64,000 bases of DNA from Rhodothermales bacterium (GTDB taxonomy: Bacteria; Bacteroidota; Rhodothermia; Rhodothermales; UBA10348): contig JANJTM010000068.1 of the NCBI GenBank assembly GCA_024711125.1, forward strand, positions 1-64,000, given 5' to 3'. The notes beneath the pieces were generated by a model. The model was not told the DNA's origin. It was given only the letters and a program-made list of their open reading frames with translations, and did no database searches. This document shows, piece by piece, positions 429-30,850 of this stretch. Position 1 is the first letter of the stretch, and every line of letters starts with the position of its first letter. Both the position numbers and the translations under genes were made by a program.

Positions 429-439
429 CCGTGCGCGGT

Positions 440-838
440 CGTGTCGACCTGTAAGCCGAATTCTGTCTGATCCGGGTGTCCGCACCACCCGGACGAGACC
501 GTCATTTATCTGGGACTGCCGTCGCCGGCAGCCTCGAGCGGCCTACCCGCGCCCTCGGAACGGGCCGTTCCGCCCTTGCGGGGAGCGCTGCTTGGCCTTG
601 CATCCCGTGGGGTTTGCCTGGCCGCCCCGGTCGCCCGGGACGCCGGTGGGCTCTTACCCCACCGTTTCACCCATCACCTGTGCCCCGTTGCCGGGGCCAT
701 CGGCTGGCCTGTTTTCTGTTGCACTTGCCGTCTCCGACCGGTGCCGGAGCCTTCCCGTTAGGAAGCACGGTGCCCTGTGATGTTCGGACTTTCCTCACCC
801 CGGGACGATGCCCGGGACGCGACGGTCCGGCCGACACG
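440..838 (-). ncRNA. rnpB: RNase P RNA (bacterial type A)
   Basis: This is the catalytic RNA of RNase P, which cuts 5' leaders from pre-tRNAs. On the minus strand the universal core blocks are recognisable: GAGGAAAGTCCGAAC near the 5' end, the GTAGGCC/CTCGAG block near the 3' end, and ACAGAATTCGGCTTACAG before the 3' terminus. I set the ends by the P1 helix: CGTGTCGGCC (838-829) pairs over 10 bp with GGTCGACACG (449-440), with one G-U. The length of about 399 nt is normal for type A. It sits between secG and the zinc-ribbon-family gene, with hairpins on both sides. Confidence 0.95.
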
Positions 839-4261: not shown

Positions 4262-5158
4262 TCAGGCGTCGACGCGGCGAGACGAGCGGTCGCGCCACGA
4301 TGCATCGAAATCGACTCCCGTGAGTTCGAAGAGGTGCATCGCGTCCCGGCGGAAGTGCTCGTACAGCCGGTCGACTTCCGCGGGATGCAGCGAGGTGGGA
4401 CCCGCCCTGTTGAACAGTCGGTAGGCGCCGCCCGCGAGGGACCTTACGGGTCGCGGAAGCCAGCGCGCCGTCCGCGAGCGAACGTTCCGAACCACCCGGT
4501 GAACCAGCCAGGACCCGGGCGCGCCACGGCCTTCGTAGCGCCGTTCGACACGATCCGGGATCTCCGTTGCCGACAGGCCGACGTGATCCAGGACCGCGCG
4601 CATCCAGCCGGCCGGATCGCCGACCATCCGGTCGTACGAAAGGACCAGGACTCGCTCGCGACCGAACGTGTCGAGGAATCTCGCGAGCGCCTCGGCGTAC
4701 AGCGAACAGCGCGCGAAGCGGGTGTCTCGCTCGTTCGGCACCGAGCGCGGATCGCGGAGGGCCGCAAGGAGCCGATGCTCGAAGTCTGCAGCCGGCAGGT
4801 TCCGCTGTCCCGCCCACATCAGGTAGTGCGAGAACGCCCGTTCCACGGGGTGCCGCAGGCAGACGACGATCCGCGCGTCCGGGGTGACTTCGCGAATGGC
4901 GGCCGCGGCGTGTACGCTGTGCAGGTACACCGGTGAGATGTCGCCTACCCGCAGCGTTTCCGGGGTCACGCGGAAAAGGTCGGCGTAGGCCTCGATCGTG
5001 AGGATTCCCTTGGTTTCCCTCTTCTCGTGGTCCGGCGCGAAGTAGGACGGTTCGGGAATGGAAGAGAGCGTGACGCCCGGCACACGCGCGAGGGTGGCGC
5101 GAAGCCCGGTAGTTCCCGTCTTGGGAGGTCCGACGTGGTAGAAATCGGGTAGCCTCAT
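4262..5158 (-). CDS. Sulfotransferase family protein (last gene of the exopolysaccharide run)
   Basis: Sulfotransferases move a sulfuryl group from PAPS to a hydroxyl or amine. The 298-residue protein has the 5'-phosphosulfate loop GPPKTGTT at residues 10-17 and the 3'-phosphate motif RHPVERAFSHY around residue 103, the two PAPS-binding signatures. EPSYF at about residue 36 is a usual catalytic-region motif. It has no signal peptide, so it should act on lipid-linked or nucleotide-linked sugars in the cytosol. It lies 25 nt downstream of another sulfotransferase gene and is the last of the leftward run. Its acceptor cannot be read from sequence. Confidence 0.88.
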   Translation of the reverse strand: MRLPDFYHVGPPKTGTTGLRATLARVPGVTLSSIPEPSYFAPDHEKRETKGILTIEAYADLFRVTPETLRVGDISPVYLHSVHAAAAIREVTPDARIVVCLRHPVERAFSHYLMWAGQRNLPAADFEHRLLAALRDPRSVPNERDTRFARCSLYAEALARFLDTFGRERVLVLSYDRMVGDPAGWMRAVLDHVGLSATEIPDRVERRYEGRGAPGSWLVHRVVRNVRSRTARWLPRPVRSLAGGAYRLFNRAGPTSLHPAEVDRLYEHFRRDAMHLFELTGVDFDASWRDRSSRRVDA

Positions 5159-5183
5159 GCTGCCGTCGAATCACGGTCGCCTA

Positions 5184-5933
5184 TCATCGCCGGTATCCGT
5201 ATCGGTCGACGATATCGCCCCAGCGGTCGTTGAATACGGCCGTGACGCGTGGCGTGAAATGCTCGCGCCATTGGGAGGGCGCCGGATTGCGAACGTGGCT
5301 GGATCGATCCGTCACCGTTTCGCTCGAGCGGTACGCCACGATCCTGCGAAGTACCAGGCGTTCGGCCGCGGAAAGGCCGAAGTGCCCGGCGATGCGGGCG
5401 TAGGCCTTCGGGAGATCCTCGAGCACGTCTTCGTATCGCTGGACCAGTACGTTCGGGGAGTCGGGCCAGCTTCGCATCGACTCGAAATGCCGGGCGCGGA
5501 ATTCCGTCTCGGCCAGCAACCCTTCCTCTATCGGGAGCCTGTGCAGGCATTCCGAAAAGGATTCGCCGGCCGTGATCGCCGACGGAACGACCCCGTGCAC
5601 GACGGCGAAGTCGTCCGGAGTCGGGTCCGCCTTCAGGCACCACGGTTCGGCTCCGCGACGATGGTAGAAGTAGCCTGACACGACGAGATCGCGCGGATCG
5701 CGCACGAAACGGCTGACACGAACCGAATCGCGCACCTGGGACGGGAGCACGTGGTTGTTCAGTGACGAGACCGTGCACGCCGTCCACGAGTCGAGAAAGC
5801 GTTCGACCTCCGAGTTGAAATGCTGATACCGTCGGACGGAATGGGGAATCGGTGCCCACAGGGCGTGAAAAACCGATGCCGTGAGACCGGTCAGGCACTT
5901 GTGGTACGAGCAGTGCACGCCCCTTGCTTTCAT
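5184..5933 (-). CDS. Sulfotransferase-like protein
   Basis: This is a 249-residue protein with a sulfotransferase fold signature but a divergent phosphosulfate loop, CSYHKCLTG, near residue 8, where the usual form is xxPKTGTT. The 3'-phosphate motif reads RFVRDPRDLVVSGYFYH (about residues 75-90), a good match, and a late VQRYEDVLEDLPKAY segment is typical. The start overlaps the stop of the upstream sulfotransferase by 4 nt (ATGA). The altered P-loop means activity is less certain than for the neighbour at 4262, though H-K-C loops occur in related polysaccharide sulfotransferase families. Confidence 0.75.
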   Translation of the reverse strand: MKARGVHCSYHKCLTGLTASVFHALWAPIPHSVRRYQHFNSEVERFLDSWTACTVSSLNNHVLPSQVRDSVRVSRFVRDPRDLVVSGYFYHRRGAEPWCLKADPTPDDFAVVHGVVPSAITAGESFSECLHRLPIEEGLLAETEFRARHFESMRSWPDSPNVLVQRYEDVLEDLPKAYARIAGHFGLSAAERLVLRRIVAYRSSETVTDRSSHVRNPAPSQWREHFTPRVTAVFNDRWGDIVDRYGYRR

Positions 5934-6925
5934 CGCTGCGGCTCCTCGCTACGGCTGCGACCGTTCGGGACGGAGTGCGGCGGAACGTGGTCCACCGGTT
6001 CATACATCCGGTGCGCCACGGGCGACGTGATATCCCACACGGTCGAGCGTTGGCCGGCGGAGAGTTGGCCCACGCGGGTCTCGAAAATCGAGGCGCTGTT
6101 CCGGCGAAGGTCCGAAAGGCGGCCGGTTCGACCGTCCGCGTTCGCGTTCGACGTGAGGCGGGCAATCCGCCGATCCACGACCCGGTCCCAGGGCAGGTCC
6201 AACCGCTCGAATGCCTGGCGGAATGCCGTCGGGGCATCGGCACTCAGGTCCTCGTGGCGCAGGACGATGGCCCGGGGGCATTCCCGGAAGAGGAAGCCGT
6301 AGGCGACACGCCAGAAGACCGCCACTTCCTCCACGCGATCCAGGCTCGATTCGAGCAGTCGGAGGTCGTCGGAAGGCAGGCGTTCGAGCAGCGGTTCCTG
6401 GGTGCGGAACAGCTCGAGCTCGGGTGACCACCCGGTTCGGAGAAAGCTGGATGTCCAGGAGGCCGGGTGTCGAACCACGACAACCGTGCGCATGCCGCCC
6501 CGGCGCTCGAGGAACGGTGCGAGAAAAAATGCGGTCGGATCCTTGAGGATTCCCACGCTTCGTATCCCGGATCGTCTTGCAGCGCGATAGTAGACGGCGC
6601 CCCGCCCGCCCACGATGCGTTTTGCGACGCGCAGGTACACGGGGTCGCCCGGCCATACCTGGGTCTTGAACCGCAACGGACTCAGGGCCCGGATCCGGGC
6701 GACGATATCCGCGTAGCGCTCGGCGTCGACTCCCTGCCCCTCCGGGTCAAGGTACGGGTACCTCGCCGTCAGTCCCTCGACCGAGCACGACGGGTTGAAC
6801 GGTTCATGCACGTACGCGGCACCGCGTGCCGAGCGAAGGATCTCGGCGACGAAAGTCGTTCCGGACCGGGGGGTTCCGGTCAGAAAAACCCACGGAACGG
6901 TGGAAGGAGGACGTTCCGTGCTCAT
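5930..6925 (-). CDS. Sulfotransferase family protein
   Basis: This is a 331-residue PAPS-dependent sulfotransferase. The 5'-phosphosulfate loop is LTGTPRSGTTFV (about residues 14-25), followed by HEPFNPSC. The 3'-phosphate region is VVRHPASWTSSF around residue 145. The start at 6925 shares one base with the stop of the upstream polymerase gene (TGATG), which fixes the start and implies coupled translation. Context suggests the acceptor is the repeat unit of the exopolysaccharide. A longer upstream reading frame is open but runs into the polymerase gene and has no homology. Confidence 0.87.
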   Translation of the reverse strand: MSTERPPSTVPWVFLTGTPRSGTTFVAEILRSARGAAYVHEPFNPSCSVEGLTARYPYLDPEGQGVDAERYADIVARIRALSPLRFKTQVWPGDPVYLRVAKRIVGGRGAVYYRAARRSGIRSVGILKDPTAFFLAPFLERRGGMRTVVVVRHPASWTSSFLRTGWSPELELFRTQEPLLERLPSDDLRLLESSLDRVEEVAVFWRVAYGFLFRECPRAIVLRHEDLSADAPTAFRQAFERLDLPWDRVVDRRIARLTSNANADGRTGRLSDLRRNSASIFETRVGQLSAGQRSTVWDITSPVAHRMYEPVDHVPPHSVPNGRSRSEEPQR

Positions 6926-8346
6926 CAGTCGCGCACCGGGTTTCGGTCGGGCAGGCTCGCGAATGCCGTGCCGACGAACGTCCAGAGTATCAGGGCATGA
7001 ACTCCGTCGAAGGCGTTCACGAAGAAGCCGGCGGCGAGCAAACCGGCCACGCCACCGATCAGGGCGGCGTACCGTGGATCCTGCGGATTCCTCCCGCGCA
7101 CGATGACCACGAGAAGGCTGCCGAGACCGTAGAAGAAGAGGGCGGCTCCCAACCAACCGAACTCATACGGGAGCGCGATGTACCCGGAATCGATACTGAC
7201 GGTGTCGCCGGTCGTGAGCTTGGCGGCCTTGCCCGCCGCCCCCAGCCCGGTCCCCTCGGGTGAGGCCAGGAATTCGAAGGCGCGGTTGGTATAGAGATTC
7301 GTCCGGCGTCGCAGGCTGATGTCCTCGTCGAGTTCGGCGAGTGTGTCCATTCGCGTCGCGATACGGGATCCGAGTGGACCGGCGAGAAGCAGGAGCACGA
7401 CCGTGACGGATCCGACCAGCGCGATACGCCCGATCACGGCCCGCGTGTGCCCGGACGACGCGGCGAACGCCACGAGAACGGACACGATCCAGGCCCCCCA
7501 GGCCGCACGGGTCCACGAAAGAAGGAGGCCTGCCACGAGCGGAGCCGAGACCGGAAGCGACTTCAACGAACGGCCGCCGAGCAGCAGCGTGAGCCCGGCC
7601 ACCATGACGTAGCCGAAGGGGTGGGTCGAGTTCAGCGTTCCGAAGATCCGGAACCTGCCGGGATCGATGTAGCGGGTCGGATAGGCCTCGGAGGCTACCA
7701 TCCACGCCCGATCCCACGGAGCAATCCAGAAGAACTGCATGACCCCGTAGACGGCCGAGAATCCGCCGGCGATCACGAAGGTGACGAGCAGAGGTCGATA
7801 CAGCTCGTCGAGCGCCCGAGGGCGCGAGGACAGGAACAGCCCGAACGCGAGCGGTGCCGCGTATTCGAGAAGGCGGAAGGTCGGTCCCGGGATCCCGTAT
7901 CGCACCAGGCCCACCCCGTACGCGAGGAGAAGCCCGGCGGCCGCGGCCAGGAACGGCCAATACCGGCGGCGCAGCAGGACCGACGGCCTGGCAAGTACGG
8001 CAACCGCCGAGAGCCCGGCCACGGCGAACGGCGTGACCTGGACCGGGTTCACCGCGAGGTAGCCCAGCTGCCAATCGAGTATGCGGCGCACGAGCGGAGA
8101 CAGGATCCAGACCCACCAGACGAAGCCGACGTACCAGGTCGGTCTCAGCCACAGCATCGCGGCGGCCGAGATCGTCGCGACGACCGGAAACAGGTACCGG
8201 GCGGTCGCCAGATGACCCGCAGCGGCGGCGAGAAACAGCAATCCCGCCGAGGCCAGGACTACCGCGGCCACGAAAAGGCCGTGACGGCTCGCCTCGAGCG
8301 GAGGCCGTATCCGGGTGTCGAGCTGGTCAGCGCGGAACGACGGCAT
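6925..8346 (-). CDS. O-antigen ligase/polymerase family membrane protein (Wzy-like)
   Basis: This is a 473-residue polytopic membrane protein with about a dozen hydrophobic segments. It also has a large periplasmic loop in its C-terminal half, around residues 330-395 (RMDTLAEL to DSGYIALPYEFG), which is the hallmark of the Wzy_C/O-antigen ligase family. Such proteins polymerise lipid-linked repeat units at the periplasmic face or ligate the polymer. With a flippase and co-polymerase in the same run, the polymerase role is favoured. It overlaps the lipoprotein gene upstream by 20 nt and the sulfotransferase downstream by 1 nt. Wzy sequences diverge strongly, so the assignment rests on topology and context. 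Confidence 0.78.
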   Translation of the reverse strand: MPSFRADQLDTRIRPPLEASRHGLFVAAVVLASAGLLFLAAAAGHLATARYLFPVVATISAAAMLWLRPTWYVGFVWWVWILSPLVRRILDWQLGYLAVNPVQVTPFAVAGLSAVAVLARPSVLLRRRYWPFLAAAAGLLLAYGVGLVRYGIPGPTFRLLEYAAPLAFGLFLSSRPRALDELYRPLLVTFVIAGGFSAVYGVMQFFWIAPWDRAWMVASEAYPTRYIDPGRFRIFGTLNSTHPFGYVMVAGLTLLLGGRSLKSLPVSAPLVAGLLLSWTRAAWGAWIVSVLVAFAASSGHTRAVIGRIALVGSVTVVLLLLAGPLGSRIATRMDTLAELDEDISLRRRTNLYTNRAFEFLASPEGTGLGAAGKAAKLTTGDTVSIDSGYIALPYEFGWLGAALFFYGLGSLLVVIVRGRNPQDPRYAALIGGVAGLLAAGFFVNAFDGVHALILWTFVGTAFASLPDRNPVRD

Positions 8347-10870
8347 CGTCTGATCTCTCCACGCGTTCGTCCGGCAGGCCGTCGAGCTGGGATTTCGTCA
8401 CCAGGATCGTGGACGTCTCGAGGCGCACGAAGCGGTCCAGACCCGCGATCTTCCAGATCGACGCGTGCTCTTTTCCGGCCTGAAGGTACGCCGTCGAGTC
8501 TGCGGGCGCCCAGGAAACCGTAGGCCAGAACGTCTCCCAGTCGAAGCTGAATCCCCCGGCCTCCCGCCGGGTCGAGCGATTGTTCCCTGCGCCGAGCAGC
8601 GGAAGGGCGCGGTGGTCGCCCCCCAGCTCCGCAACGAAGAACCCGTCGGCCGTGAACAGGTACAGCCCGCCGAGGTCGTTGTTGGCGGCCCAGAGCGGGC
8701 CGGCCGCCGACGGAATGGGAAAGCCCACGATGCGCGAGGTCTGGGCCAGCCGGCCCCCGGCACTGAGGCCGGATTCCTGCCCCCGGCGGTACCACGGGTT
8801 GTCGTAGTGCCAGGTCCTGCCGCTCGTATGTACCCCGACGATCGGCCCCCCCGCGCGTACGGTCCAGCCATCGCCGGCATCGAGCACGTCACCCGTTCCC
8901 GGGCGCCGCCCGGGCCCGGTCGTTTCCAGGCGGTCCAGGTCGAACACCGGGACCCCGTCCGCACGGATCGCGGGCGGCCCGAGGCGCGAGAAATCCGAGA
9001 AGATCGTGGCCAGGTCCTGGCCCACGCTGATCGTCAGCGGCTCGCTTTCCACGGACCGGAACGCGATTTCGGCCGCGGAGACCCTGCCGTCCCGGTCAAG
9101 GTCAGACCATGCATACAGCCTGGTCCCGCCGTCTCGAGCCAGGATGCGTTCGACCGCCGGCCAAGTCTGGCCTGCCTTTGCGCCGACGAAGCCGACGGCC
9201 GCGACCAGCCGGGCGACATGATCCTCGTCCAGCATCCAGATCCCGGCCGTGGCCGTCTGCCCTTCGGGCGTCCGGTTGAAGGCGTTGAGCAGGTAGCGGT
9301 GTCCCAGGTGAAGAACCGGTTGCTCGGGCCCTGCCGACGGGAAGCTCAGGCCGTCGCCGGTATCCGTGGGGTGCAGGTAAACGAACTCCGGCCGGGACGG
9401 TCCGCCGTCCAGCGGGAGGCGGAACGCGATTCCGGAACGGGTCTGCCGCTTATCCTCGAGGTGCGCGTAATAGACCAGCGCAGGGTCCGCCGGGTCCACG
9501 ACACCGCCTCCGCCGTACTTGGGGCTTCCGTACATCGCTCGAACGAAGCGGCCGTCGGGAGACCAGACCGAGATCCTTCGCAGCACCGGGCTGTTCTCAG
9601 CCACCCACAACTCGTCGCCGACCCAGGCGAGACCTGCCGGATAATCCATCCGCGACGGGTCGTACGGGCCCGAACGCAGTCCACCCGGAATGCCGAATAT
9701 CGTGCCGTGAGCTCCGTCGGGCGACAGTCGGACCACGGTATGTGTCGACTCGTCCGACACGAAGAAACCGCCGGACCGGAAGACGACCCGCTGGGGACGG
9801 CCGAGCCCGTGGCGTACGGTCCCGGTGCGCGTGAGCGTGCCCGTTCGCCGATCGACCGCGTAGGACTCCAGGTTGGGCCCGGCCAGCACCCAGAGCGAAC
9901 CGCGATCGTCCACGGTGAGCCCGGAGGGTCGATCCACCGGAACACGGGACAGCAATCGGGTCTGCCGGGCGTTCCCCCCGAGGCGCAGGACGAGCAGCTC
10001 GGAGGTGGAGGGAACGCTCACGACCGCGAGGTCGCCGAGGATCGTGACGTCGGGGAGGGCACGATCCGCCGCAAGGGTCCCGGGTTCGTCGTACAGCCTC
10101 TGTAGACGGTCCTTGCCCACGTGACCTCGAAGGACCCACCGATCGGGAGTCTGGACGAGGGAGTACAGGTGCCGTCGATCCACGGCATCGGACGGGACGG
10201 CGAGCGCGACGCCTCCGTGCCAACCTTCGCGCAGCCCGAATAGCTTCGTGCCCCGCCCGTCCAGCCAGGCGTAGGAGTGTCCGGCCTCGGACAATTCGGC
10301 GGAAATGGCAGCCCGAGCTCCTGTGTAAGGGGTGCCAGGCTCCAGGGACACGATGGCGACCGGCGGCGCATGATCCGACAACCAGGCACCCGAGGCGTCC
10401 GGGAGATGCCAGGGAATCGTGGCGTTCGTATAGATCGAGCCGGCGAGCGTCAGGTCCAGCGAGTCACGAAGAAGCGCCCTGACCGTGTATTCGCCGGGTT
10501 CGACGCGTCGGAAAACCACGTCGTACCGGAAACCCATGCCGTTGCGGCGTTCGTTGGCGACACCGCCGGACGCGTAGCCGTCCCAGGCAAATTCGCGCGG
10601 GCCCGCGTCGACCCACCGACCCGACACGAGATTCCGCACGCGGTTTCCTTCCCGATCCTCGATGACGACCGACAGGAAGCCTGCGCGCGGAACGTTTACC
10701 AGGATCCGTATCCCCGGCGGCTCGCCGCCGGTCCGGACCGCTTCGGACGTTGCCGGGCCGGCGCCGGGTGTGCCGCACGCGGCCAGGGCGGCCAGCAGCA
10801 GCGGCAGCGCGCGACCGGTGCGAAGCCGGTTCCGCGAGAAGCAGGTGAAACGATGACTCAACGCTTCCAC
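8327..10870 (-). CDS. Large lipoprotein with FlgD-like Ig domain and beta-propeller repeats
   Basis: I do not recognise a named family. The 847-residue product has a short basic N terminus, a hydrophobic stretch and a lipobox LAAC (Cys near residue 32), so it is a lipoprotein, probably facing the periplasm or cell surface. Residues about 52-140 resemble the FlgD-type Ig domain (GIRILVNVPRAGFLSVVIED, then EFAWDGY). The rest has NHL/SMP-30-like beta-propeller blades, for example PSGLTVDDRGSLWVLAG and PAGLAWVGDELWVAENS, and DLDRDGRVSAAEI resembles an EF-hand-like calcium loop. The start is GTG at 10870 and overlaps the upstream sulfotransferase by 13 nt; TTG at 10861 is an alternative. Its place inside the locus suggests a role in handling or exporting the polymer. 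Confidence 0.75.
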   Translation of the reverse strand: MEALSHRFTCFSRNRLRTGRALPLLLAALAACGTPGAGPATSEAVRTGGEPPGIRILVNVPRAGFLSVVIEDREGNRVRNLVSGRWVDAGPREFAWDGYASGGVANERRNGMGFRYDVVFRRVEPGEYTVRALLRDSLDLTLAGSIYTNATIPWHLPDASGAWLSDHAPPVAIVSLEPGTPYTGARAAISAELSEAGHSYAWLDGRGTKLFGLREGWHGGVALAVPSDAVDRRHLYSLVQTPDRWVLRGHVGKDRLQRLYDEPGTLAADRALPDVTILGDLAVVSVPSTSELLVLRLGGNARQTRLLSRVPVDRPSGLTVDDRGSLWVLAGPNLESYAVDRRTGTLTRTGTVRHGLGRPQRVVFRSGGFFVSDESTHTVVRLSPDGAHGTIFGIPGGLRSGPYDPSRMDYPAGLAWVGDELWVAENSPVLRRISVWSPDGRFVRAMYGSPKYGGGGVVDPADPALVYYAHLEDKRQTRSGIAFRLPLDGGPSRPEFVYLHPTDTGDGLSFPSAGPEQPVLHLGHRYLLNAFNRTPEGQTATAGIWMLDEDHVARLVAAVGFVGAKAGQTWPAVERILARDGGTRLYAWSDLDRDGRVSAAEIAFRSVESEPLTISVGQDLATIFSDFSRLGPPAIRADGVPVFDLDRLETTGPGRRPGTGDVLDAGDGWTVRAGGPIVGVHTSGRTWHYDNPWYRRGQESGLSAGGRLAQTSRIVGFPIPSAAGPLWAANNDLGGLYLFTADGFFVAELGGDHRALPLLGAGNNRSTRREAGGFSFDWETFWPTVSWAPADSTAYLQAGKEHASIWKIAGLDRFVRLETSTILVTKSQLDGLPDERVERSDDAVVPR

Positions 10871-11754
10871 CGGGACAAGTCGAGATCGAGAAGGGTCTCC
10901 ACGGCCTCAATGTCTGTCGCGTACCGCTCCACCAGCATGGCGCGCACCGCCGGATCGATCCCGCTCTTCCGGGGACGGGTCCGGCGCATCACGAATCGTC
11001 GGACAGGCTCTCGTACCACGGCCGGCACGGACTTCTGAAGGATCCGCTTTGCCGACGAGTCCCGGAGAATGAAATGCCGGAGCGACCGGAGTCTCGATAC
11101 GCCGGACGACACGTTGAGTCGCTCGGAAACGTCCGGAACGAAACGGTCGTCGACTCCTATGAAGCGGAAGATCTCCCCCATGACGCGCTCCGGCTCGGCG
11201 TCGAAATCCTCATAGCGGAAGAACCGCACGCGGTCGGGTCCGAAGAGATCCACGTACGACCGGACCGCGTCAGCGTAGAGGCTGCGTCGAAGGCAGAATT
11301 CGGTGATCAGGTCGCCTGACCCGTGCCACGGACGATCGATGCGCCGATGGACGGCCGATCCGAAATCGGACTCGTCGACGTCTTCGTGGCTGGCCATGAG
11401 CATGAGGTAATGGGAGTACGCTCGCTCCACGGGGTCTCGCAGCACACCGACGATCCGCACGTCGGGAAGTGTATCGCGGATGGCGCGAGGTGCCACCGCT
11501 GAATGAAGGTACCGCGCCGAGACTTCCCCTCGGGTAGGGAAACCCCCGGATCCGTCGAACAGACGGCGGTATTCCAGGGCGTCACGGACAATGGGGTTGT
11601 CGTCGGCCGCGAAGAACGCCGGTTCCTTCATGGAGGGCAGGAAGACCTGCGGGTGCTGGCCGAGATACCGGTGCAACGACGTCGATCCGGTCTTTTCGGC
11701 ACCGATGCCGAGAAATGTCGGCCGCAGCGGCCAATCCGAGAGTCGTGCGTCCAT
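10858..11754 (-). CDS. Sulfotransferase family protein
   Basis: This is a 298-residue PAPS-dependent sulfotransferase with the phosphosulfate loop GIGAEKTGSTSLHRYL near residue 15, the motif MKEPAFFA around residue 42, and the 3'-phosphate site LRDPVERAYSHYL at about residue 105. It is the same length as the protein at 4262-5158 and shares its motif order, so the two look like paralogues. The start at 11754 shares one base with the flippase stop (TGATG), which settles the start. A longer open frame upstream is only the antisense of the flippase region and lacks homology. Confidence 0.88.
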   Translation of the reverse strand: MDARLSDWPLRPTFLGIGAEKTGSTSLHRYLGQHPQVFLPSMKEPAFFAADDNPIVRDALEYRRLFDGSGGFPTRGEVSARYLHSAVAPRAIRDTLPDVRIVGVLRDPVERAYSHYLMLMASHEDVDESDFGSAVHRRIDRPWHGSGDLITEFCLRRSLYADAVRSYVDLFGPDRVRFFRYEDFDAEPERVMGEIFRFIGVDDRFVPDVSERLNVSSGVSRLRSLRHFILRDSSAKRILQKSVPAVVREPVRRFVMRRTRPRKSGIDPAVRAMLVERYATDIEAVETLLDLDLSRWKR

Positions 11755-13271: not shown

Positions 13272-13349
13272 GGGAACGCAGGGCGTGGATGGGGTTGACC
13301 GGCCCGGCCGGTCCGGACGGTCGGGGACCGTCGTCCGGCTGAGCGATCC

Positions 13350-15668
13350 TCATGTCGACGAGGGCAGATTCCGCGACCGCGAGCCGGGTGCCTCCTCGTA
13401 CCCGTATCCGTACCCGTACCCGTACCCGTATCCCGAGCCGGAAGAACCTGCCGTCGCCCGGTTGGCCACGATACCCGAAACCGCGGCCTGCACATTGGAA
13501 AGAGCCTCCAGGGCGTCGGATACGGCGGCGGTCGGGGTCCGATTGAGGGCTACGACCAGGAGGCTCGCGTCCACCCGGGTGCAGAGTACGGCGCTTTCGG
13601 TCGCCAGCAGCACCGGAGGGGTGTCGATGACCACGTAGTCGAACGATCGGGACATCTCGTCCACGAGCGAGCGCATGCGTTCCGAGCCGATGATCTCGGC
13701 GGGGGCCGGCACGGATCTGCCGGCGGGCACGATCCAGAGGTTTTCTGCCGGAGTCCGGAAGCGGGACCAATCCGCCGGCCCCTCGTCGAAGAGGAGGTCG
13801 GCCAGCCCGGGTGATCTCGGTGTCTGGAAGAGGTCGTGCTGTGAGGGCGACCGGAGGTCGGCGTCGACCAGGAGAACCCGGTTTCCGCCCATGGCCATGG
13901 CCACCGCGAGGTTGGCGACGACGGTCGACTTGCCTTCCGAAGCCAACGCACTCGTGACGACGACCGTGCGGGCCCTCCGGTCCGGGGAGGCAAACTGGAG
14001 ATTCGTTCGCAACGCGCGGAATGCCTCGGCCCCGGGCCCCATGGGCGCATGAAGCGACAGGACCTTGGCCGGTGTTTCGGTCCTCGGGGCGGATCCGTTC
14101 GTCTTGGCCAGCCAGGCACCGTCGCGGAATTCGGGGATGGTACCCAGTATGGGACGCCCGAAGGCACGAAGGGCGTGGATCGAGTGCACCCGGCGATCGA
14201 GGGCCTGCCGCGCGAACGCGAATCCGGTACCGAGGAGGAGCGAAGCGACGAAGGCCAGCGCCAGGTTCATTGCCGGGTTCGGACGGGCAGGCCGTGCGGG
14301 CTTCAGGGCACGGCGGACGATCGATACGTACCCGAGGGTGGACTGCTCGGAGACCCGGACCTGTTGCAGTTGGTCTGCGAGGCCGAGGAACGTGTGTTCG
14401 ACGCTCTGCCGTTGCCGCTGCAGTTGTCCGAGCCGGATCATGTTCGCGGGCATTCGATCCAATCGACGCCGGTACACGTCGAGCCGGGCCTGCATCGCCT
14501 CGAGCCGGGCCTGCATCGCGGAGCCCTGGATCCGCTTGTCGGCGAGTTCGCGGGTACGGTTCGTCACCGACTCCAGGTCGGCGCTGCCGGGCTCGACCGA
14601 GGCGATGCCGGCGGCCATGACCCGATCGACATAGCGCTTGGCCAGGGCCGACAAATCGGAGCGGGCCGAAACCAGCGATCGTTCGAGTCGGGCGAGTTCG
14701 TCCGGCCGGTCCGCATCCGGGTCGGAGGCCAACGCGGGGTATCGCACGTAGTACTCCGCCAGACGTGCCTCGATATCGGCCATCCGGTCCTGCACGGCGC
14801 GGATCTGCCGTTCCGGCGATTCGGCGATCCGGGCGGCCATGTCTGACGACACCGCCGAAAGCTGCCCCTCGATGGCGTCGATCTCCGCCGCATTGGCCTC
14901 CCGATCGATACGGAGGTCCTCAAGCCGCGAATCGAGCGCGGCGATCAGGTCCACCAGGAAATCGGCCTCCTTTTCCAGGACGACGATGCGTTCCTCCTCC
15001 ATGAAACGCTCCATGTCCTCTTCGATCCGGTCCAGCGTCTCGGCGCGGCTCGCAACCTGTCTCTCGAGGAACTCCCGGGTAGCAGTGACGCTCGCACGGC
15101 TGGTTTCCCGGGCCCAGGTCCGAAAGGTTTCGGCGTAGACGTTTGCCAGCAGGGTCGCTTCGGCGGCATCGCGGCTGACCGCCTTGATCTGGATCAGGCT
15201 CGGCCGGTTCTCTACGGCCGTGAACGTCATGCGGGCATCGAGAAGGGCCACGGCCACCTGCTGACGGGTCCGGACAACGCCCGACTCGTCCGAAAGTACC
15301 GGCAGCGCCGATCCGTCCTCCGGGGCGCGACCGATTGCCAACAGCGAATCTGCCACTCGCTCGGCGATCGGGAGCGACTTGCGCAGGATCTCGAGCTGGT
15401 TGTAGAACCGGCGATCCTCGGGCGTGCTGGTGCGCTCGACCGGATCGTAGCTCGACGAAGGCGTCTCCGACTTGATGTCGCTTGCATCGACCAGGACTAC
15501 GCTGGACGCTTCGTACTCCGGGCTCTGGACCGCCGTCAGGGCAGCGGTGAGCGCGAGCCCGACAACCAGCGTGGCGACGATGACCCAGCGACCGCGGGAT
15601 ATCGCCCTGACGAAGGCGGCGAACTCGGCGGTTTCCCGGGTAGAGGATTCCGAAAGCGGGGTAGGCAT
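13350..15668 (-). CDS. Polysaccharide co-polymerase with BY-kinase domain (Wzc-like)
   Basis: This 772-residue Wzz-plus-tyrosine-kinase protein controls chain length and export through cycles of autophosphorylation. A first membrane helix (about residues 28-50) leads into a periplasmic domain with a long coiled coil (about 190-400). A GNVR-like stretch precedes the second helix ([17 protein letters not shown]). The cytosolic kinase has Walker [17 protein letters not shown], Walker A' [10 protein letters not shown] and Walker B YVVIDTPP. The tail has six Gly-Tyr repeats, the tyrosine cluster that is phosphorylated. The start is ATG 15668, preceded 13 nt upstream by the end of the sugar transferase gene. 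Confidence 0.92.
13398..13433 (-). repeat. Hexanucleotide repeat coding for the Gly-Tyr tail of the BY-kinase
   Basis: Six near-identical 6-bp units (GGNTAC on the coding strand) encode [12 protein letters not shown] just before EEAPG. Unit gain or loss keeps the frame and would only change the number of phosphorylatable tyrosines. Confidence 0.85.
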
Positions 15669-15681
15669 GCAGTGGAGCGCC

Positions 15682-16389
15682 TCAGTGGGCGCCTTCGCCG
15701 AGGAGGATGGTGGGAAGGGTCGCCGCGAGGAGACGGACGTCTCCCGAAATCGTTGCCGTGCGGGCATACTCGGCGTCGAGCCGCACCCGCTCCGAGAAGG
15801 GGAGACTGTTTCGCCCGGAGGTCTGCCAGAGGCCCGTCAATCCGGGTCGCACCGCCAGGATCTCGTGCGCGTGCTCGCCGAGTTTGTCGATCTCCTCCGG
15901 AAGGTACGGACGCGGGCCGACGAGGCTCATGTCGCCCCTCAGGACATTGAACAGTTGCGGAACCTCGTCGAGGCTAAGACGGCGCATCCACCGGCCGACA
16001 CGCGTGACGCGGGGATCTTCCCGGAGCTTGTGAAACTGGTGATATTCGTGGCGCAGGTCCGGGTCCGAGGCCAGGATGCGCTCCAGGACGGCGTCGGCGT
16101 CCGGTCGCATGCTGCGGAACTTGAGCAGCGTGAATCTTCGCCCGGCCACCCCCAGGCGCTCCTGGCGGAACAGGACGGGCCCGTGGGTCTCCCACTTGAT
16201 GGCCGCCACCGCGAGCAGCGCCACCGGGGAAAGTACCACCGTGCCGAGGAGCGCAAGAACCACGTCTCCGAGTCGTTTTCCGGGCAGCGACCGGAATTTC
16301 ACGGTTTCCGGGCGGAACGCGGAACGATTCTCGGTCCCTTCTGCGTGCGGCATCTGCCCGACCGGGGTCGGCGCGATATCGAGTTCCAT
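15682..16389 (-). CDS. Undecaprenyl-phosphate sugar phosphotransferase (priming enzyme)
   Basis: This 235-residue protein of the bacterial sugar transferase family (WbaP/WcaJ/PglC catalytic core) starts repeat-unit assembly by moving a sugar-phosphate from a UDP-sugar to undecaprenyl phosphate. It has one membrane anchor ([25 protein letters not shown]). The catalytic region carries LKFRSM, the Asp-Glu pair in [24 protein letters not shown], and the late signature [14 protein letters not shown]. All are diagnostic. It is the short form without the N-terminal CoA-binding-like region. The 79-nt gap before it is one of the larger gaps in the run and could hold an internal promoter. Confidence 0.93.
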
Positions 16390-16468
16390 GGATGCCTGCA
16401 GGCCGACGTCGGAATCTCAGCGAATCCTGAATACAACCCGAAGATACCCCTGGATGTTCCTCGATGCC

Positions 16469-17668
16469 CTATTCACGGGGCAATTCCGTACAGCCCGGAG
16501 CGACCTCTTCGAACACCGCGTAGGTCCTGGTCCGGATGCCGTGGATGTCGAAGGTCTCCGCCGCGTACCGACGGGCGCGTCCGGCGAGACCGTCGGCGAA
16601 CGCCGGATCGTCCAGGACCAACGCAATGGCTTCAGCCAACGCGGCCGGGTTCTCGGGCGGAACCAGGAGTCCGGTCTCGCGCTGGCGGATGGTTTCCCTG
16701 GAACCTCCGAGATCCGACGCGATGACCGGGACCCCGGACAGTTGTCCCTCGATGGCCACCCGTCCGAACGCCTCGCTTTCTACCGAAGGGACAATCACCG
16801 CATCCAATGCACACAGGATGTCGACCGCATCGTCCCGATGGCCCAGGAACCTGACCCGCCCCCGAAGATCCGGTTGTCCGGCCCTCTCGCGCAACGAATC
16901 CGCGTACTCGGCGTCCCCGCCGAAGAGGGCGTCGCCGACCAGGAGGACCGTTACCTCGGGAAGCCGGGCTACGGCGTCGAGCAGAACGTGCTGCCCCTTC
17001 CAACGGGTAAGTCGGCTCAGGCAGCCCACGACGTTCCGGTCGGACTCGAGCCCGAGGGCCGTCCGCACGCGCATTCGGGTGCCGGCGTCGCGAACGAAGC
17101 GTGGCGGATCGAAACCGTCCGGGATGACGAGTACTCGATCCGCCGAGCCGCCGCTCGCGACATATCCTTCGGCGCAGGTTCGCGTCGGGGCGATCATTCG
17201 ATCGCAGAGCAGTTCCGATGCCGTGACCGTGGCGATACGGGCGAAGCCCGAATAGTACGAGTCGAGGACCGTGCGCTGGTGCCAGACGCACGGAACGCCG
17301 GACAATCGGGCCGCGAGGCCTCCGAGAAAGGCGGCCTTCTGCGAGTTGGTGTATACGAGCCTGGAACGGTCGGCCAATGCGGCGAGGCGCATGAGCGGAG
17401 ATGGCATTCCCGAGAAAGCCCGGACCGCCGCGCCGATGCCCGCCTTTCGCCGGAAGTGCGCCAGCCCCTCGACGACCGGCATGACCTCGCAGTCGATTCC
17501 GACGTCCGACAGCCTGGAAACCAGGGGGCCGTCATCGAACAGTACGACGCGGAAGAGTCCCGGGCGACCGGCGAGGAGGTCCAGCATGGACAGTTCGCCG
17601 CCGCCCATCTGGGCGGTCTGGTTAACGACCAGGATCGGGCGCACGGGCGCCGAGGCAGAACTCCGCAT
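16469..17668 (-). CDS. Glycosyltransferase family 4 protein
   Basis: This protein of about 400 residues has the GT-B fold. The C-terminal Rossmann domain shows the GT4 pattern: GCLSRLTRWKGQHVLLDAV, LLVGDALFGG, and the donor-binding SVESEAFGRVAIEGQLSGVPVIASDLGGSRE with the E-x7-E arrangement. The N-terminal acceptor domain has VVNQTAQMGGGELSMLDLL. It should add a sugar to the lipid-linked repeat unit. I chose ATG 17668, which begins just before the fold; ATG 17707 is also open and would overlap the upstream gene by 86 nt instead of 47. Confidence 0.88.
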   Translation of the reverse strand: MRSSASAPVRPILVVNQTAQMGGGELSMLDLLAGRPGLFRVVLFDDGPLVSRLSDVGIDCEVMPVVEGLAHFRRKAGIGAAVRAFSGMPSPLMRLAALADRSRLVYTNSQKAAFLGGLAARLSGVPCVWHQRTVLDSYYSGFARIATVTASELLCDRMIAPTRTCAEGYVASGGSADRVLVIPDGFDPPRFVRDAGTRMRVRTALGLESDRNVVGCLSRLTRWKGQHVLLDAVARLPEVTVLLVGDALFGGDAEYADSLRERAGQPDLRGRVRFLGHRDDAVDILCALDAVIVPSVESEAFGRVAIEGQLSGVPVIASDLGGSRETIRQRETGLLVPPENPAALAEAIALVLDDPAFADGLAGRARRYAAETFDIHGIRTRTYAVFEEVAPGCTELPRE

Positions 17669-18764
17669 GTCTACGAGCGATTTCCGTCCAGGAAAAATGG
17701 GTGTCATGGAACCGCCGCCCCGTGTCGCCGATTTCGCTGCGCGCGACGGCGTCCTCGCAGAGCCGGATCACCGTGCGATCGAACGCCTCGCGGTCCGAAT
17801 CGGGTACGAGTTCGAACGCTGCACCCGAACCCTCCCGCAGGAATCGGTCCGTGTCCGGGCCGGCGGTCGATACGGTCGGTATGCCGTGCTGCAGCGCGGC
17901 GATGAAGGAACCCCGGCGACCGGACACGCCCCTTCGAAAGGGCGTCGCGCAGAGGTCCATCGCGCAGAGGCCGTCGGGTACGGCGGCAATCGGAAGCGGT
18001 CCCGTCGAGACCACCGGCACCGAGCCGGCGGCACGGTGCACACGCTCCACGTCCGGTCCGACATAGAACAGGCGTGCGTCCACACCCCGCCGGCGGGCGG
18101 CGTCCACCGCTCCCGCAACCCAGTCGATTCGCCGCTCAGGCCGGACCTTGCCGAAGACACCCACGAGGATGGCGTCCTTCGGAAGGCCGAGTGACGAGCG
18201 GGCCGAAGGGCGCGGGACGATCCGCAGCGGAACGTTCGACCCGATGGGTATGGCGGTCACTCGACCTGCGCCGACCGCTCGCCCGAAGCCGGGTACCCAG
18301 GCCTCGATGGTGGATGCGACGCGGTCGACGTGCCGCAGGAGCACCGCCAACTGCACCCGGTGCGCGAGGCAGAGGACGGCCTTTCGAAGGGTCGCGGGTT
18401 CGATGTGGGTCTCGTGGGCCACGAGCACGATCCGGGTCGAGGGGGAACCCCGACGGACGCGGGCCAACACAGGCGCGAGCCATGGGTTCACGCCCCGGTG
18501 TCCGTAACTGAACGGGTTGTACTGTACCAGCAGGGCGTCCGGCCGGCGATCGACGACCGCCCGGGCGATCGCGGCGATCGACCGGCGCGGAGCTTCGTCG
18601 AAGACACGCTCGATCCTCGCTCCGGCGACCGGTGAAGGGTCGTGTTCGGAGGTCAGGATCCGGACGTCGGCGAACGGGGCAAGGTGTTCCGCGAGGATGG
18701 CCGTGTATTCTCCGATCGCGTCGAATGCCGGCGGGAGCCTCGGGAATACGAGGTCCATCGTCAT
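17622..18764 (-). CDS. Glycosyltransferase family 4-like protein
   Basis: This is a 380-residue GT-B glycosyltransferase. The N-terminal domain starts LVFPRLPPAFDAIGEYTAILAEHL, a pattern of GT4 acceptor domains. The C-terminal half has VGVFGKVRPERRIDWVAGAV and a donor loop SGRRGSFIAALQHGIPTVSTAGPD, more divergent than in the neighbouring GT4 genes and lacking the clear E-x7-E. The sugar donor is unknown. The start overlaps the stop of the sulfotransferase-like gene at 18761 by 4 nt, and its end overlaps the next glycosyltransferase. Confidence 0.82.
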   Translation of the reverse strand: MTMDLVFPRLPPAFDAIGEYTAILAEHLAPFADVRILTSEHDPSPVAGARIERVFDEAPRRSIAAIARAVVDRRPDALLVQYNPFSYGHRGVNPWLAPVLARVRRGSPSTRIVLVAHETHIEPATLRKAVLCLAHRVQLAVLLRHVDRVASTIEAWVPGFGRAVGAGRVTAIPIGSNVPLRIVPRPSARSSLGLPKDAILVGVFGKVRPERRIDWVAGAVDAARRRGVDARLFYVGPDVERVHRAAGSVPVVSTGPLPIAAVPDGLCAMDLCATPFRRGVSGRRGSFIAALQHGIPTVSTAGPDTDRFLREGSGAAFELVPDSDREAFDRTVIRLCEDAVARSEIGDTGRRFHDTHFSWTEIARRHAEFCLGARAPDPGR

Positions 18765-19630
18765 GGCGCGGCGCCGTACGTGCCATTGGAGCCGGCACCC
18801 GCTTCGCCCGGAGCGGACTCCGCCGTACGCGGTTCGTAACCGAAACGCGTGATGATCAGCGCCTCGCGCTCGTTGACGAGCCGTAGGGTGGCCGCGTCGT
18901 GGTGGCTGATCCGTTTCCTGCCGCGGAACGAGACGTTCGTCCTCGGGGCGTTGCGGAGATGCTCCACCTGGGCGTCGGTCAAGGGGGTCCCCGCGAGCCG
19001 CAGCGCCTTCACCAGGTCGTCCTCCAGGGACTCGTTACGGATCCAGTAGTCCACGAATTCCTGCCGGGCACACCACTCGACGAGGCCGTCCAGGGTCCCT
19101 CCCGAAACCGAACCGGGTGGGACGGAGGACCGCAGGTACAGGCGCATGTAGCGGTGACTCATGAACCCGAGCCGGTCGGAGAGGCCGCTGGCCGAATACC
19201 CTTCCCCGAGATGTTCGACCCATTCGGGATCGGCGATCCGATGCATCCAATCGCGGAATGCCCCGGGATCATTGACGTCAGCGTAGCATCGCTTCCACGC
19301 GCGCGTCCCGGTCAGGGATCGAACCAACCGTCCCGCGAAGTCTCCGTGGACGCCCCGTCGCCAGTCGACCCGCTGCAGCGTGACCGGGCGCGTCAGTCGT
19401 TCGTACAGCGCTCCCTTGCGGGAGCAACCGTAGGCCCAGAGCGAAACGTACCAGTCCCATGGATTGCGGATGGAGCCAAGGAACTTCCGCCCGGAGGCGA
19501 GCAGCGCGTCGGAAGGTCGGTTGTGACGGCCGACCTGGGTGCCCGGCACCAACTCAGACAGTAGGGTGGTCACATGGGTCCCACCCGTCTTGTGGAGTTC
19601 GACAAAGGCGAATCGATCGGTGACGTACAT
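18761..19630 (-). CDS. Sulfotransferase-like protein
   Basis: The 289-residue product fits the branch of sulfotransferases typified by carbohydrate sulfotransferases (Sulfotransfer_2-like). The N terminus FVELHKTGGTHVTTLL is the 5'-phosphosulfate loop, and SIRNPWDWYVSLWAYG near residue 53 is the 3'-phosphate motif. The C-terminal third has RTNVSFRGRKRISHHD, with the conserved HxxD-like ending of this group. It lies 3 nt downstream of a GT4 gene and overlaps the next GT4 by 4 nt, so it is embedded among sugar-assembly genes. Confidence 0.82.
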   Translation of the reverse strand: MYVTDRFAFVELHKTGGTHVTTLLSELVPGTQVGRHNRPSDALLASGRKFLGSIRNPWDWYVSLWAYGCSRKGALYERLTRPVTLQRVDWRRGVHGDFAGRLVRSLTGTRAWKRCYADVNDPGAFRDWMHRIADPEWVEHLGEGYSASGLSDRLGFMSHRYMRLYLRSSVPPGSVSGGTLDGLVEWCARQEFVDYWIRNESLEDDLVKALRLAGTPLTDAQVEHLRNAPRTNVSFRGRKRISHHDAATLRLVNEREALIITRFGYEPRTAESAPGEAGAGSNGTYGAAP

Positions 19631-19633
19631 GGT

Positions 19634-20782
19634 TCAGCCACGGGTCGGCGCACGCCGGGTTTCGAGTGCTTCCCGGTAGACTTCGATCGTCCGGCCGGCT
19701 ACCGCGGCCCACGCGAACCGATCCAGGGCGTATTCGCGACATCGTTGGGGCGACGGAGCGGGCAGGCGCCCTTCCAGCGCAGCCCGAAGATGGGCGGCGA
19801 GCGCTTCCGATGACGATCCCGGGCAGACGAGTGCGGGTTCGAGCGGACGGACGATCTCCGGCAGGCCGCCCACGGGAGTAACCAGGCACGGCGTACCGGA
19901 CGACAGTGATTCGACGCATACGAGGCCGAAGCCCTCCAGGTCGACGGTCGGAACGACGCTCCAGTCGGCGGCCGCGTAGACGAGGGGCAGCAGCACGTCT
20001 TCGACCGGTCCGGTGAATCGCACGGTTTCGTCGAGTCCGAGAGACGACGCGCGGCGTCGCAGGGACTCCCCTTCGCTGCCGGATCCCACGACGAAGAGAC
20101 GGAACCGGTGGCCGGCGTCCAGGGTGGTCCGGCAGGCTTCGAGCAGATTCTCGATGCCCATTCTCCGCTTCAACCGACGGACGGTGACGAAGACAGGGAG
20201 GTCGTTCTCCCACCCGAGTCGCTGACGGGCATCGGCGAGGGAACGGACGGGTACGAACCGCTCCGTGTCCACTCCTCCGGGCACGATTCGTATGCGATCG
20301 CGATGCACTCCGAAACGTGAGGTCGCCATTTCGGCGAAAGCCGACGAGAGCACGATCACCCGATCGGCGGCGCGGTATACCCTCCTTTCGACGAGTCGTT
20401 TCGCGGCGACCACGAGGGGGTGTGCACCCTCAAACGCTGATTCCAGCGACCACGGGCCATGGAAATGGAAGACGAACGGGTGGCCCCGGATCACGTCCAG
20501 AGCAGGCAGGGCATAGGGCGCGAAGTGGGCGGCGACGACATCGGGTCGAGAGTCCCGCACCACTTCCCGGGCTCCGCGACGCACGGCCCGCAGCTTGGCT
20601 GCCATGGATGCGGAGTGCGGTCCCAGCAGGAGGTCCACGGAAGGATCGCCGGAGTCGCTGAAGCTCGCGGTGATCACGTCCGCATTCCGCGCCCTCAGTC
20701 CACCGACGAGCCCCTCGACCATGCGGTTCAGGCCGCCCGGTTCGTCGGCGAAGGAGGACATTCCGATTTCCAGGACTCGCAC
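19634..20782 (-). CDS. Glycosyltransferase family 4 protein
   Basis: This is a 382-residue GT4 enzyme of the GT-B fold. The N-terminal domain has GGLNRMVEGLVGGL and FVFHFHGPWSLES. The C-terminal domain carries VTVRRLKRRMGIENLLEAC, FVVGSGSEGESLRRRA, and the donor motif VDLEGFGLVCVESLSSGTPCLVTPVGGLPEI with the expected E-x7-E. The start is GTG at 20782 (MRVLEIGMSSFADEPGG). It is 39 nt downstream of the first sulfotransferase gene of the run and 3 nt upstream of the next. Linkage and donor are not predictable from sequence. Confidence 0.88.
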   Translation of the reverse strand: MRVLEIGMSSFADEPGGLNRMVEGLVGGLRARNADVITASFSDSGDPSVDLLLGPHSASMAAKLRAVRRGAREVVRDSRPDVVAAHFAPYALPALDVIRGHPFVFHFHGPWSLESAFEGAHPLVVAAKRLVERRVYRAADRVIVLSSAFAEMATSRFGVHRDRIRIVPGGVDTERFVPVRSLADARQRLGWENDLPVFVTVRRLKRRMGIENLLEACRTTLDAGHRFRLFVVGSGSEGESLRRRASSLGLDETVRFTGPVEDVLLPLVYAAADWSVVPTVDLEGFGLVCVESLSSGTPCLVTPVGGLPEIVRPLEPALVCPGSSSEALAAHLRAALEGRLPAPSPQRCREYALDRFAWAAVAGRTIEVYREALETRRAPTRG

Positions 20783-20821
20783 GGGCTTGAGCGGATGAGT
20801 TGGGACGGCGGGCGCAGGTTG

Positions 20822-21556
20822 TCAGTAGCCCATGGCGGCCCGCAGGCCCCCTATGCGCTCGCGGCAGATCCGCAGTTCTTCGGCGGTCAGCACGTCGGTA
20901 TGTCTGCGATTGCCCCCCGTCGCCAGGTGGAATCGCTCGAAAGGTTCGTCCCTTGCGACGATGGCCTGCGCAGAATAGCGTGAGGCGATGTCTCGCAGCC
21001 GGTCGTCCGCGACGTCGATCCCGAGCCAGTCCCGCAGCCGTCCGAGTTCAGCCGGTGCGTCTGCGAGCAGGTCTTCGTATCGCACGGCAAGCGTGCCTGC
21101 ACGGTGAGCCCAGAAGGACCACTCCGCCAGGTACGGCTCCAGGTAGTCGAGTGCCGTTCGCACGTCGGTGACCGACGCGTGGTCAGACCGGTTTCCCTTT
21201 TCGCGTGCGCGCCGTCCGTGGTCCATCAGCGATACGACGACGTCAAACGGGTCCCGATACGAGAGCACGACGCGGATCAGGCCGGCCCTCGCGATCACGC
21301 CCGTGGAATAGGAGCCGGCGCGATGCGTCGTGACGAGGAACGGGCCGGTCCTCCTGGAAGCCAGGAGCAATCTCGCCAACCGCAAGGGATTCCGGCCGTT
21401 GACGTGATCGGTCTTTTCCCGGATGACGGTCTGCAGACCGCTGCGCTCCCGAACGTCTGCGGCCCGTGGATACCCTGCGGCCTCGGCGACGTCGGAGGCC
21501 ATCCGGTAGAACCACGCGCTGCCGGATTTCTTCATCCCGACATGGAGAATCAACAT
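20822..21556 (-). CDS. Sulfotransferase-like protein, first gene of the exopolysaccharide run
   Basis: This is a protein of about 244 residues with a phosphosulfate loop HVGMKKSGSAWFYRM at its very start and a 3'-phosphate motif VLSYRDPFDVVVSLMDHG near residue 88. The C-terminal half holds AVRYEDLLADAPAEL, usual for sulfotransferases. I start it at ATG 21556, where the fold begins; ATG 21604 is also open. A TATCCT box at 21620-21615 could be the promoter of the whole leftward run, but its -33 partner is weak (TTC 23 nt upstream). The divergent tRNA gene lies beyond. Confidence 0.8.
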   Translation of the reverse strand: MLILHVGMKKSGSAWFYRMASDVAEAAGYPRAADVRERSGLQTVIREKTDHVNGRNPLRLARLLLASRRTGPFLVTTHRAGSYSTGVIARAGLIRVVLSYRDPFDVVVSLMDHGRRAREKGNRSDHASVTDVRTALDYLEPYLAEWSFWAHRAGTLAVRYEDLLADAPAELGRLRDWLGIDVADDRLRDIASRYSAQAIVARDEPFERFHLATGGNRRHTDVLTAEELRICRERIGGLRAAMGY

Positions 21557-21735
21557 CACGGACAAAGGTTCGGCAATCGCGGGTTCGTTTTCCGGCGGTT
21601 CCATCGGTACGCGCAGGATACGGCAATTCTTCCGCCCGGACGAGAATTCGCGAAGCCCGGGCCGCGAGTACGGGGTCGGGCGAAAATCGGGCGACGGCGA
21701 ACCCGTGTCGGCGGCCGCGCGTTCGTACGCGCCAG

Positions 21736-21808
21736 GCCCTCGTAGCTCAGGGGATAGAGCAGCGGTTTCCTAAACCGCGTGTCGCAAGTTCGAGTCTTGC
21801 CGAGGGTA
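21736..21808 (+). tRNA. tRNA-Arg (anticodon CCU)
   Basis: A 73-nt cloverleaf. The acceptor GCCCTCG (21736-21742) pairs with CGAGGGT (21801-21807) with G-U at the tip. The D arm is GCTC/GAGC. The anticodon stem GCGGT/ACCGC holds the loop TTCCTAA, giving anticodon CCU for AGG codons. The T arm is GCAAG TTCGAGT CTTGC. The discriminator base is A, and CCA is not encoded. The next base is C, then the ATG of the following gene, so the two are almost fused. Confidence 0.95.
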
Positions 21809-21809
21809 C

Positions 21810-30465: not shown

Positions 30466-30813
30466 ATGCGAGTGCTCGCCGCCGTCATCCTGCTCGTGTT
30501 CATGACGGGATGCGACTCCAATGACAACAACAACAACGTCAACCCGCCGATCACCAACACGAACCCGCGCGTCCAGGTCAACAACCAGAGCGCGACCACG
30601 ATCGTCACGTTCCAGTGGAGCGACTGCTCGGCGACCGTCTGGGGCGGCGACCGGCTCGGGACCGACGTCATCGGTCCGGGCGGAAGCCGTGCTTTCGAAC
30701 TTGCCCCGGGCTGCTACGACTTCCAGGCCGTCAACGACCTGGGCCTCGTGCGCCAGTTGATGGGTCAGCAGGCCAACTACAACCAGACCATCCAGTTCAA
30801 CTTCACGAACTGA
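30466..30813 (+). CDS. Small hypothetical lipoprotein
   Basis: This is a 115-residue product with a clear lipoprotein signal (MRVLAAVILLVFMTGC, lipid-anchored Cys at residue 16). An Asn/Pro/Thr-rich linker (DNNNNVNPPITNTNP) follows, then a compact domain with two cysteines and beta-strand-like segments (ATTIVTFQWSDCSATVWGG, FELAPGCYDFQAVND). The domain is shaped like a small Ig-type fold, but I do not recognise its family. GGGAGG ends 7 nt before ATG 30466, a strong ribosome site that decides the start over ATG 30451. A 12-bp hairpin follows the stop, so it is probably monocistronic. Confidence 0.78.
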   Translation: MRVLAAVILLVFMTGCDSNDNNNNVNPPITNTNPRVQVNNQSATTIVTFQWSDCSATVWGGDRLGTDVIGPGGSRAFELAPGCYDFQAVNDLGLVRQLMGQQANYNQTIQFNFTN

Positions 30814-30850
30814 CGGTCTCGGAATACGTCCACGCTCTGCGGATCGACCC

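Follow-up and report, generated by a model that had tools for sequence, protein, structure and literature searches.

A sulfotransferase-dense operon in a Rhodothermales bacterium, predicted to direct a sulfated Wzx/Wzy-type polysaccharide

What does a bacterial sugar-assembly operon make when six sulfotransferase genes are woven through it? The question is raised by a 17.3-kb locus of a Rhodothermales bacterium (GenBank assembly GCA_024711125.1), found in a window of 64,000 nucleotides, which is the whole stretch of DNA analyzed here (contig JANJTM010000068.1, positions 1 to 64,000). An earlier note on this DNA had proposed an exopolysaccharide sulfated at several positions. Very probably the locus is an operon of the Wzx/Wzy-dependent type for an exopolysaccharide (or capsule), and sulfation of the repeat unit would take place in the cytoplasm. 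This reading is supported by the sulfotransferase proteins themselves, by the set of genes around them, by genes elsewhere in the genome for the sulfate donor 3'-phosphoadenosine 5'-phosphosulfate (PAPS), and by the tight coupling of the genes in one direction. Sulfated Wzx/Wzy polysaccharide loci are already known, synechan being the model, and the present locus adds one that is unusually dense in sulfotransferases.

The operon and the proposed pathway

Fourteen genes, all on the minus strand, form one leftward run from position 21604 to 4262, as defined by open reading frames and Pfam profile searches. In order of transcription they encode the sulfotransferase ST6, the family 4 glycosyltransferase (GT4) GTc, ST5, two further GT4 enzymes (GTb and GTa), a priming transferase, a Wzc-like tyrosine kinase (BY-kinase), the flippase Wzx, ST4, a propeller lipoprotein, a Wzy-like protein, ST3, ST2 and ST1. 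The earlier note had listed the six sulfotransferase-like genes along with the priming, BY-kinase, flippase, polymerase/ligase-like and three GT4 genes, and all of them lie where it put them and point leftward; its list was incomplete only in omitting the lipoprotein. Its description of a single operon with overlaps of 1-4 nt also holds, with 4-nt overlaps at ST3/ST2 and ST5/GTb, 1-nt TGATG junctions at Wzx/ST4 and Wzy/ST3, and gaps of about 79 nt at the widest. An origin of these reading frames by chance was ruled out by the profile matches, the third-position GC and the conserved motifs.

The priming enzyme, flippase and co-polymerase of the Wzx/Wzy pathway are all present, and a sequence of events can be proposed. 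The priming phosphoglycosyl transferase (15682-16389; Bac_transf, PF02397, E-value 6.8e-60), whose closest NCBIfam model is WbaP at a score below the WbaP cut-off, would place a sugar phosphate onto undecaprenyl phosphate. The primed sugar would be lengthened to a short oligosaccharide by GTa (16469-17644; PF00534, 2.4e-31), GTb (17622-18764; PF13692, 2.8e-10) and GTc (19634-20782; PF00534, 4.2e-33, and PF13439, 4.3e-24); the start of GTa is uncertain, GTG at 17644 being one candidate and the longest reading frame extending to 17707. The sulfotransferases would then transfer sulfate from PAPS to the growing lipid-linked unit, and Wzx (11754-13271; PF13440 or Polysacc_synt_3, 3.6e-55, and PF01943, 3.4e-16) would flip the sulfated unit across the membrane. 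Polymerization of the units would fall to the Wzy-like protein (6925-8346), and control of chain length to the Wzc-like co-polymerase and BY-kinase (13350-15668; TIGR01007 above cut-off, with Wzz, GNVR and AAA_31 matches). Finally, the polymer would be carried across the outer membrane by the single Poly_export/SLBB exporter of the genome, which is encoded outside the operon on another contig (C48).

The sulfotransferases and their sulfate supply

Five of the six sulfotransferase-like proteins score above the curated Pfam cut-off for PF00685 or PF13469, and the placement in the sulfotransferase superfamily claimed earlier is thereby borne out for those five. They are ST1 (4262-5158; PF13469, 1.2e-17, and PF00685, 1.3e-10; loop PKTGTT), ST2 (5184-5933; PF00685, 3.6e-10, in a match that does not cover the loop region), ST3 (5930-6925; PF13469, 5.8e-9; loop PRSGTT), ST4 (10858-11754; loop EKTGST, followed by a KEP glutamate) and ST6 (20822-21604; PF00685, 3.9e-10, and PF13469, 3.6e-7; loop KKSGSAW). 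The starts of ST3 and ST4 were set at 6925 and 11754 from codon-position GC and neighboring stops, those of the plain reading-frame list lying too far upstream. When all six proteins are aligned, only four columns are invariant, namely the glycine of the 5'-phosphosulfate loop and the arginine, proline and serine of the 3'-phosphate motif R-x-P-(x)5-S. Conservation of precisely these residues in six of six proteins is what a family of PAPS sulfotransferases would predict.

The sixth protein, ST5 (18761-19630), is probably also a sulfotransferase. It has a loop HKTGGT and a 3' motif RNPWDWYVS, one clear relative (36% identity) in genome G056, and a weak one in genome G107 (E 1.6e-5, over the C-terminal third only) that itself passes PF03567 (Sulfotransfer_2). 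The earlier note had counted two of the six loops as altered. Only that of ST2, HKCLTG, proved truly unusual; the KTGG of ST5 is not so counted, because it recurs in the relative that passes PF03567. AlphaFold models of ST5 reached a pLDDT of 35 alone and 44 together with the other five window proteins, and viral contigs yielded no relatives of it. The relative in G056 has in its vicinity what reads from sequence as an exosortase-like membrane protein (L048 1522-2505 and 3180-3803).

Comparison with solved structures divides the set further. ST4 matches the bacterial sulfotransferase 3rnl (2.5e-41), NDST (5.6e-11) and 3-OST-3 (3.8e-7), and ST1 matches 3rnl (2.4e-20) and 3-OST-3 (1.8e-9). Across nine homologs the lysine, glycine and threonine of the loop, the glutamate of a KEP/PEP motif and the arginine, proline and serine of the 3' site are invariant, and in ST1 this glutamate is E36, which aligns with a glutamate of 3-OST-3. 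The glutamate after the PAPS loop is the catalytic base in NDST and 3-OST enzymes. As judged from sequence, then, ST1 and ST4 resemble the heparan sulfate N- and 3-O-sulfotransferases and have a conserved glutamate where those enzymes have their catalytic base, and these two would act by the NDST/3-OST mechanism. A search of contigs with ST4 gave a single match, a Symploca relative at 32% identity. ST2 also matches solved structures of the superfamily, ST6 matches retinol dehydratase, a SULT-fold protein (4e-5), and ST3 found no match among solved structures by sequence.

The best scores of ST2 and ST6 being to SULT-type folds, and the superfamily including small-molecule enzymes, one might ask whether the sulfotransferases act on lipids or small molecules and merely share the operon. 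This is highly improbable, given that in this operon, as in many Rhodothermales genomes, sulfotransferase genes are interleaved with glycan genes, and that ST1 and ST4 have their kin among enzymes of heparan sulfate synthesis. Sulfation of the glycan itself is the preferred reading. Six of the seven sulfotransferases detected in the 3.79-Mb genome lie within these 17.3 kb (p ~6e-14 under random placement). In a tree of 74 sulfotransferases, from which ST5 was left out and whose deep nodes are weakly supported, the window proteins group with members of other loci and not with each other, which argues that they are not recent local duplicates. Local duplication as the origin of the six was rejected on the basis of this tree, within its limits, and the pattern suggests acquisition by recruitment and shuffling instead.

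The earlier note had suggested looking for PAPS synthesis genes in the full genome, and these are present. Its one APS kinase (2.7e-60) forms part of a 659-residue CysN-CysC fusion on contig C56, where the gene order is CysD, CysN-CysC and then an SLC13-type permease. The seventh sulfotransferase lies on the same contig, adjoining the divergent cysD, cysNC and permease genes, within a second exopolysaccharide cluster (64000-96000; L012, L013) that has a BY-kinase, an ABC-type flippase, glycosyltransferases and methyltransferase-like genes. CysD is the only PF01507 protein of the genome, and a CysH-type PAPS/APS reductase is therefore lacking; a siroheme sulfite reductase (PF01077) was likewise not found in the genome. 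The same searches were positive in 14 (PF01507) and 11 (PF01077) of 14 control genomes. Since neither reductase is present in an assembly that is 99.3% complete, PAPS appears to be dedicated to sulfation, and CysD and CysN-CysC would be its source.

A link between sulfotransferases and PAPS supply is also seen across 119 related genomes, where a strong APS kinase match occurs in 62 of 68 carriers of PF00685 and in 24 of 51 non-carriers (Fisher p 1e-7, with no correction for kinship or for genomes that carry sulfotransferases of other families). In genome G047 the APS kinase gene (C104:6720-7178) directly precedes two sulfotransferase genes. Genome G100 holds an apparently broken APS kinase copy with in-frame stops (C3:283597-284039) as well as an intact one.

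Points against the reading and other possible products

Several observations weigh against the preferred reading. The Wzy-like protein, a polytopic membrane protein, matches no Pfam profile and owes its recognition solely to its position, its hydrophobic stretches and a homolog of 33% identity within a similar locus of genome G054; it could be a ligase instead of a polymerase. ST5 is without a match in the Pfam profile search, and the atypical loop of ST2 may mean that this enzyme is inactive or altered. The operon holds no nucleotide-sugar genes from which its sugars could be named. In an assembly of 81 contigs, the operon and the genes for PAPS synthesis lie on separate ones, and the argument from missing reductases concerns one assembly; at 99.3% completeness the absence of CysH is unlikely to be an assembly gap.

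The doubtful identity of the Wzy-like protein, which cannot be told from a ligase, gives some room to a different product: a sulfated glycan that stays bound to the cell, whether O-antigen-like, capsular, or ligated to lipid or protein. Indeed, sulfotransferase and glycosyltransferase genes of Salinibacter ruber are described inside the O-antigen cluster (PMC6060240). The Wzc-type BY-kinase with its tyrosine-rich tail and the Poly_export/SLBB exporter nevertheless fit an exopolysaccharide or capsule, and no second polymerase was seen in the operon, which makes a cell-bound glycan rather unlikely. The tail in question is a Gly-Tyr-rich run at the C-terminus of the kinase; BY-kinases of this type frequently end in such a run.

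If a secreted or capsular polymer is the product, how many sulfates would it carry? Sulfation at several positions is plausible; six genes need not mean six sites. A serious possibility, though one we rate somewhat below even, is that some of the enzymes are inactive, share a position or serve alternative polymers, the locus being a reservoir of surface variation. The loop of ST2 and the divergence of ST3 and ST5 would fit this proposal, as would the lack of a clear phenotype in one of two Synechocystis sulfotransferase mutants (PMC8205485) and the hypervariability reported for S. ruber islands that carry such genes (PMC3669384). It has to be set against the fact that all six proteins are full-length with an intact 3'-PAPS motif, and that the ones included in the tree cluster with proteins of other loci and are hence not recent local duplicates.

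The lipoprotein that interrupts the sugar genes in mid-operon (8327-10870, 847 residues) has a FlgD-Ig-like domain and NHL/beta-propeller repeats, which match designed Pizza propellers (3e-10). Among 196 genomes, full-length relatives (30-33% identity) occur only in G047, in two copies. It might act on the polymer extracellularly, by binding or processing it. The operon is flanked by genes for MFS, NIF3, zinc-ribbon and saccharopine-dehydrogenase-like proteins and a tRNA-Arg(CCT) (21736-21809, plus strand), the last bordering its upstream end; a promoter and terminator scan of the locus did no better than on shuffled sequences. Elsewhere in the window are a class A RNase P RNA (436-838, minus strand) and, at 30615-34242, a gene whose product combines ThuA and glucose/sorbosone dehydrogenase domains, with a gene for a PHP/DUF5001 protein after it.

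Related loci and known sulfated polymers

The comparison of gene order with related genomes, which the earlier note had proposed, showed sulfotransferase-rich loci with six to nine such genes among GT4 genes in at least four other Rhodothermales genomes. These are G069 (contig C4, about 2666-2687 kb; nine sulfotransferases, seven GT4), G107 (C189; eight and six), G067 (C2; six and 9-10) and G054 (C163; six and 5-6), the sulfotransferases of two of these extended loci having been checked against Pfam. A BY-kinase and an ABC flippase lie near three of the four. G054 shares the architecture of the operon, with priming enzyme, BY-kinase, Wzy homolog, six sulfotransferases and GT4 genes, and G067 shares adjacent GTb-GTa relatives along with relatives of ST4, ST2 and GTc. 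These loci rule out that the arrangement is unique to the host genome. The host assembly contains no 16S rRNA, and the host was placed through its relatives: genome G038, assigned to the same order, has a 35,505-bp second contig of which the first 5,000 bases are 100% identical to plasmid NC_007678.1 of Salinibacter ruber DSM 13855, which puts the host in the Rhodothermales. The trait is patchy in the host's family, where PF00685 occurs in 5 of 27 genomes; elsewhere in the order it is common. Our literature search found no paper describing the polymers of these Rhodothermales loci. Sulfotransferase- and glycosyltransferase-rich surface islands have been published for S. ruber, of the same order (PMC6060240, PMC3669384), and they resemble the host in combining these genes in surface-glycan islands, with loci of the same build in related genomes; the passages on the islands themselves describe neither a sulfated polymer nor the host gene order, and the host is of a different family than S. 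ruber.

The closest proven system is synechan of Synechocystis PCC 6803, a sulfated Wzx/Wzy polymer with a sugar to sulfate ratio of 8:2 (PMC8205485). Its xss cluster likewise groups Wzx/Wzy genes, glycosyltransferases and PAPS sulfotransferases, with the exporter gene elsewhere. It has two sulfotransferases to eight glycosyltransferases, whereas the host operon has six to four (three GT4 enzymes and the priming enzyme), and its XssQ/R/S regulators have no counterpart in the examined flanks of the host operon. If gene counts map onto structure as in synechan, the host repeat would by extrapolation consist of four sugars, a tetrasaccharide, bearing at most six sulfates. The earlier claim that such loci are rare among bacterial Wzx/Wzy systems thus stands only in part: synechan is a precedent, and the locus type is not rare in its own order, but the density of sulfotransferases is unusual.

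Other clusters share some of these features. The wps-1 cluster of Actinoplanes missouriensis is also predicted to make a sulfated Wzx/Wzy product, and both of its sulfotransferases are required for normal sporangia; it differs in its Gram-positive host, in having only two sulfotransferases, and in that sulfation of the product is predicted only (PMC13390465). The capsules of Vibrio KMM 8419 and Cobetia KMM 1449, whose sulfation was demonstrated by chemistry and nuclear magnetic resonance, have sulfotransferases too, with PAPS-synthesis genes beside the glycan genes, but they use an ABC-transporter pathway, and the Vibrio cluster has three reported sulfotransferases (PMC11641403, PMC11766843). 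In Pontiella, a member of the Kiritimatiellae with glycosaminoglycan-like exopolymers, a glycosyltransferase-rich cluster includes a sulfotransferase and a sulfated exopolymer was detected; that cluster has a single sulfotransferase and the genome three (PMC7356697).

Against this background the host locus stands out by its density of sulfotransferases, six against four sugar transferases, and by a use of PAPS that is apparently for sulfation only. A bolder proposal, which we put forward tentatively and consider doubtful, is that dense sulfation of heparin-like polymers, at roughly one sulfate or more for each sugar, is general in the Rhodothermales, and that some members, like this host, have lost the reductive assimilation of sulfate and activate it to PAPS solely for sulfation. 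Papers up to 2026 present bacterial sulfated polysaccharides as apparently confined to cyanobacteria (PMC13390465, PMC13125312), although such polymers have been demonstrated in Vibrio, Cobetia and Pontiella. A non-cyanobacterial order with members in pure culture and with loci of six to nine sulfotransferases would widen that range, and it would supply a large and diverse set of glycan sulfotransferases, some of them akin to those that modify heparan sulfate, with which to test how sulfate is positioned on sugars by bacteria.

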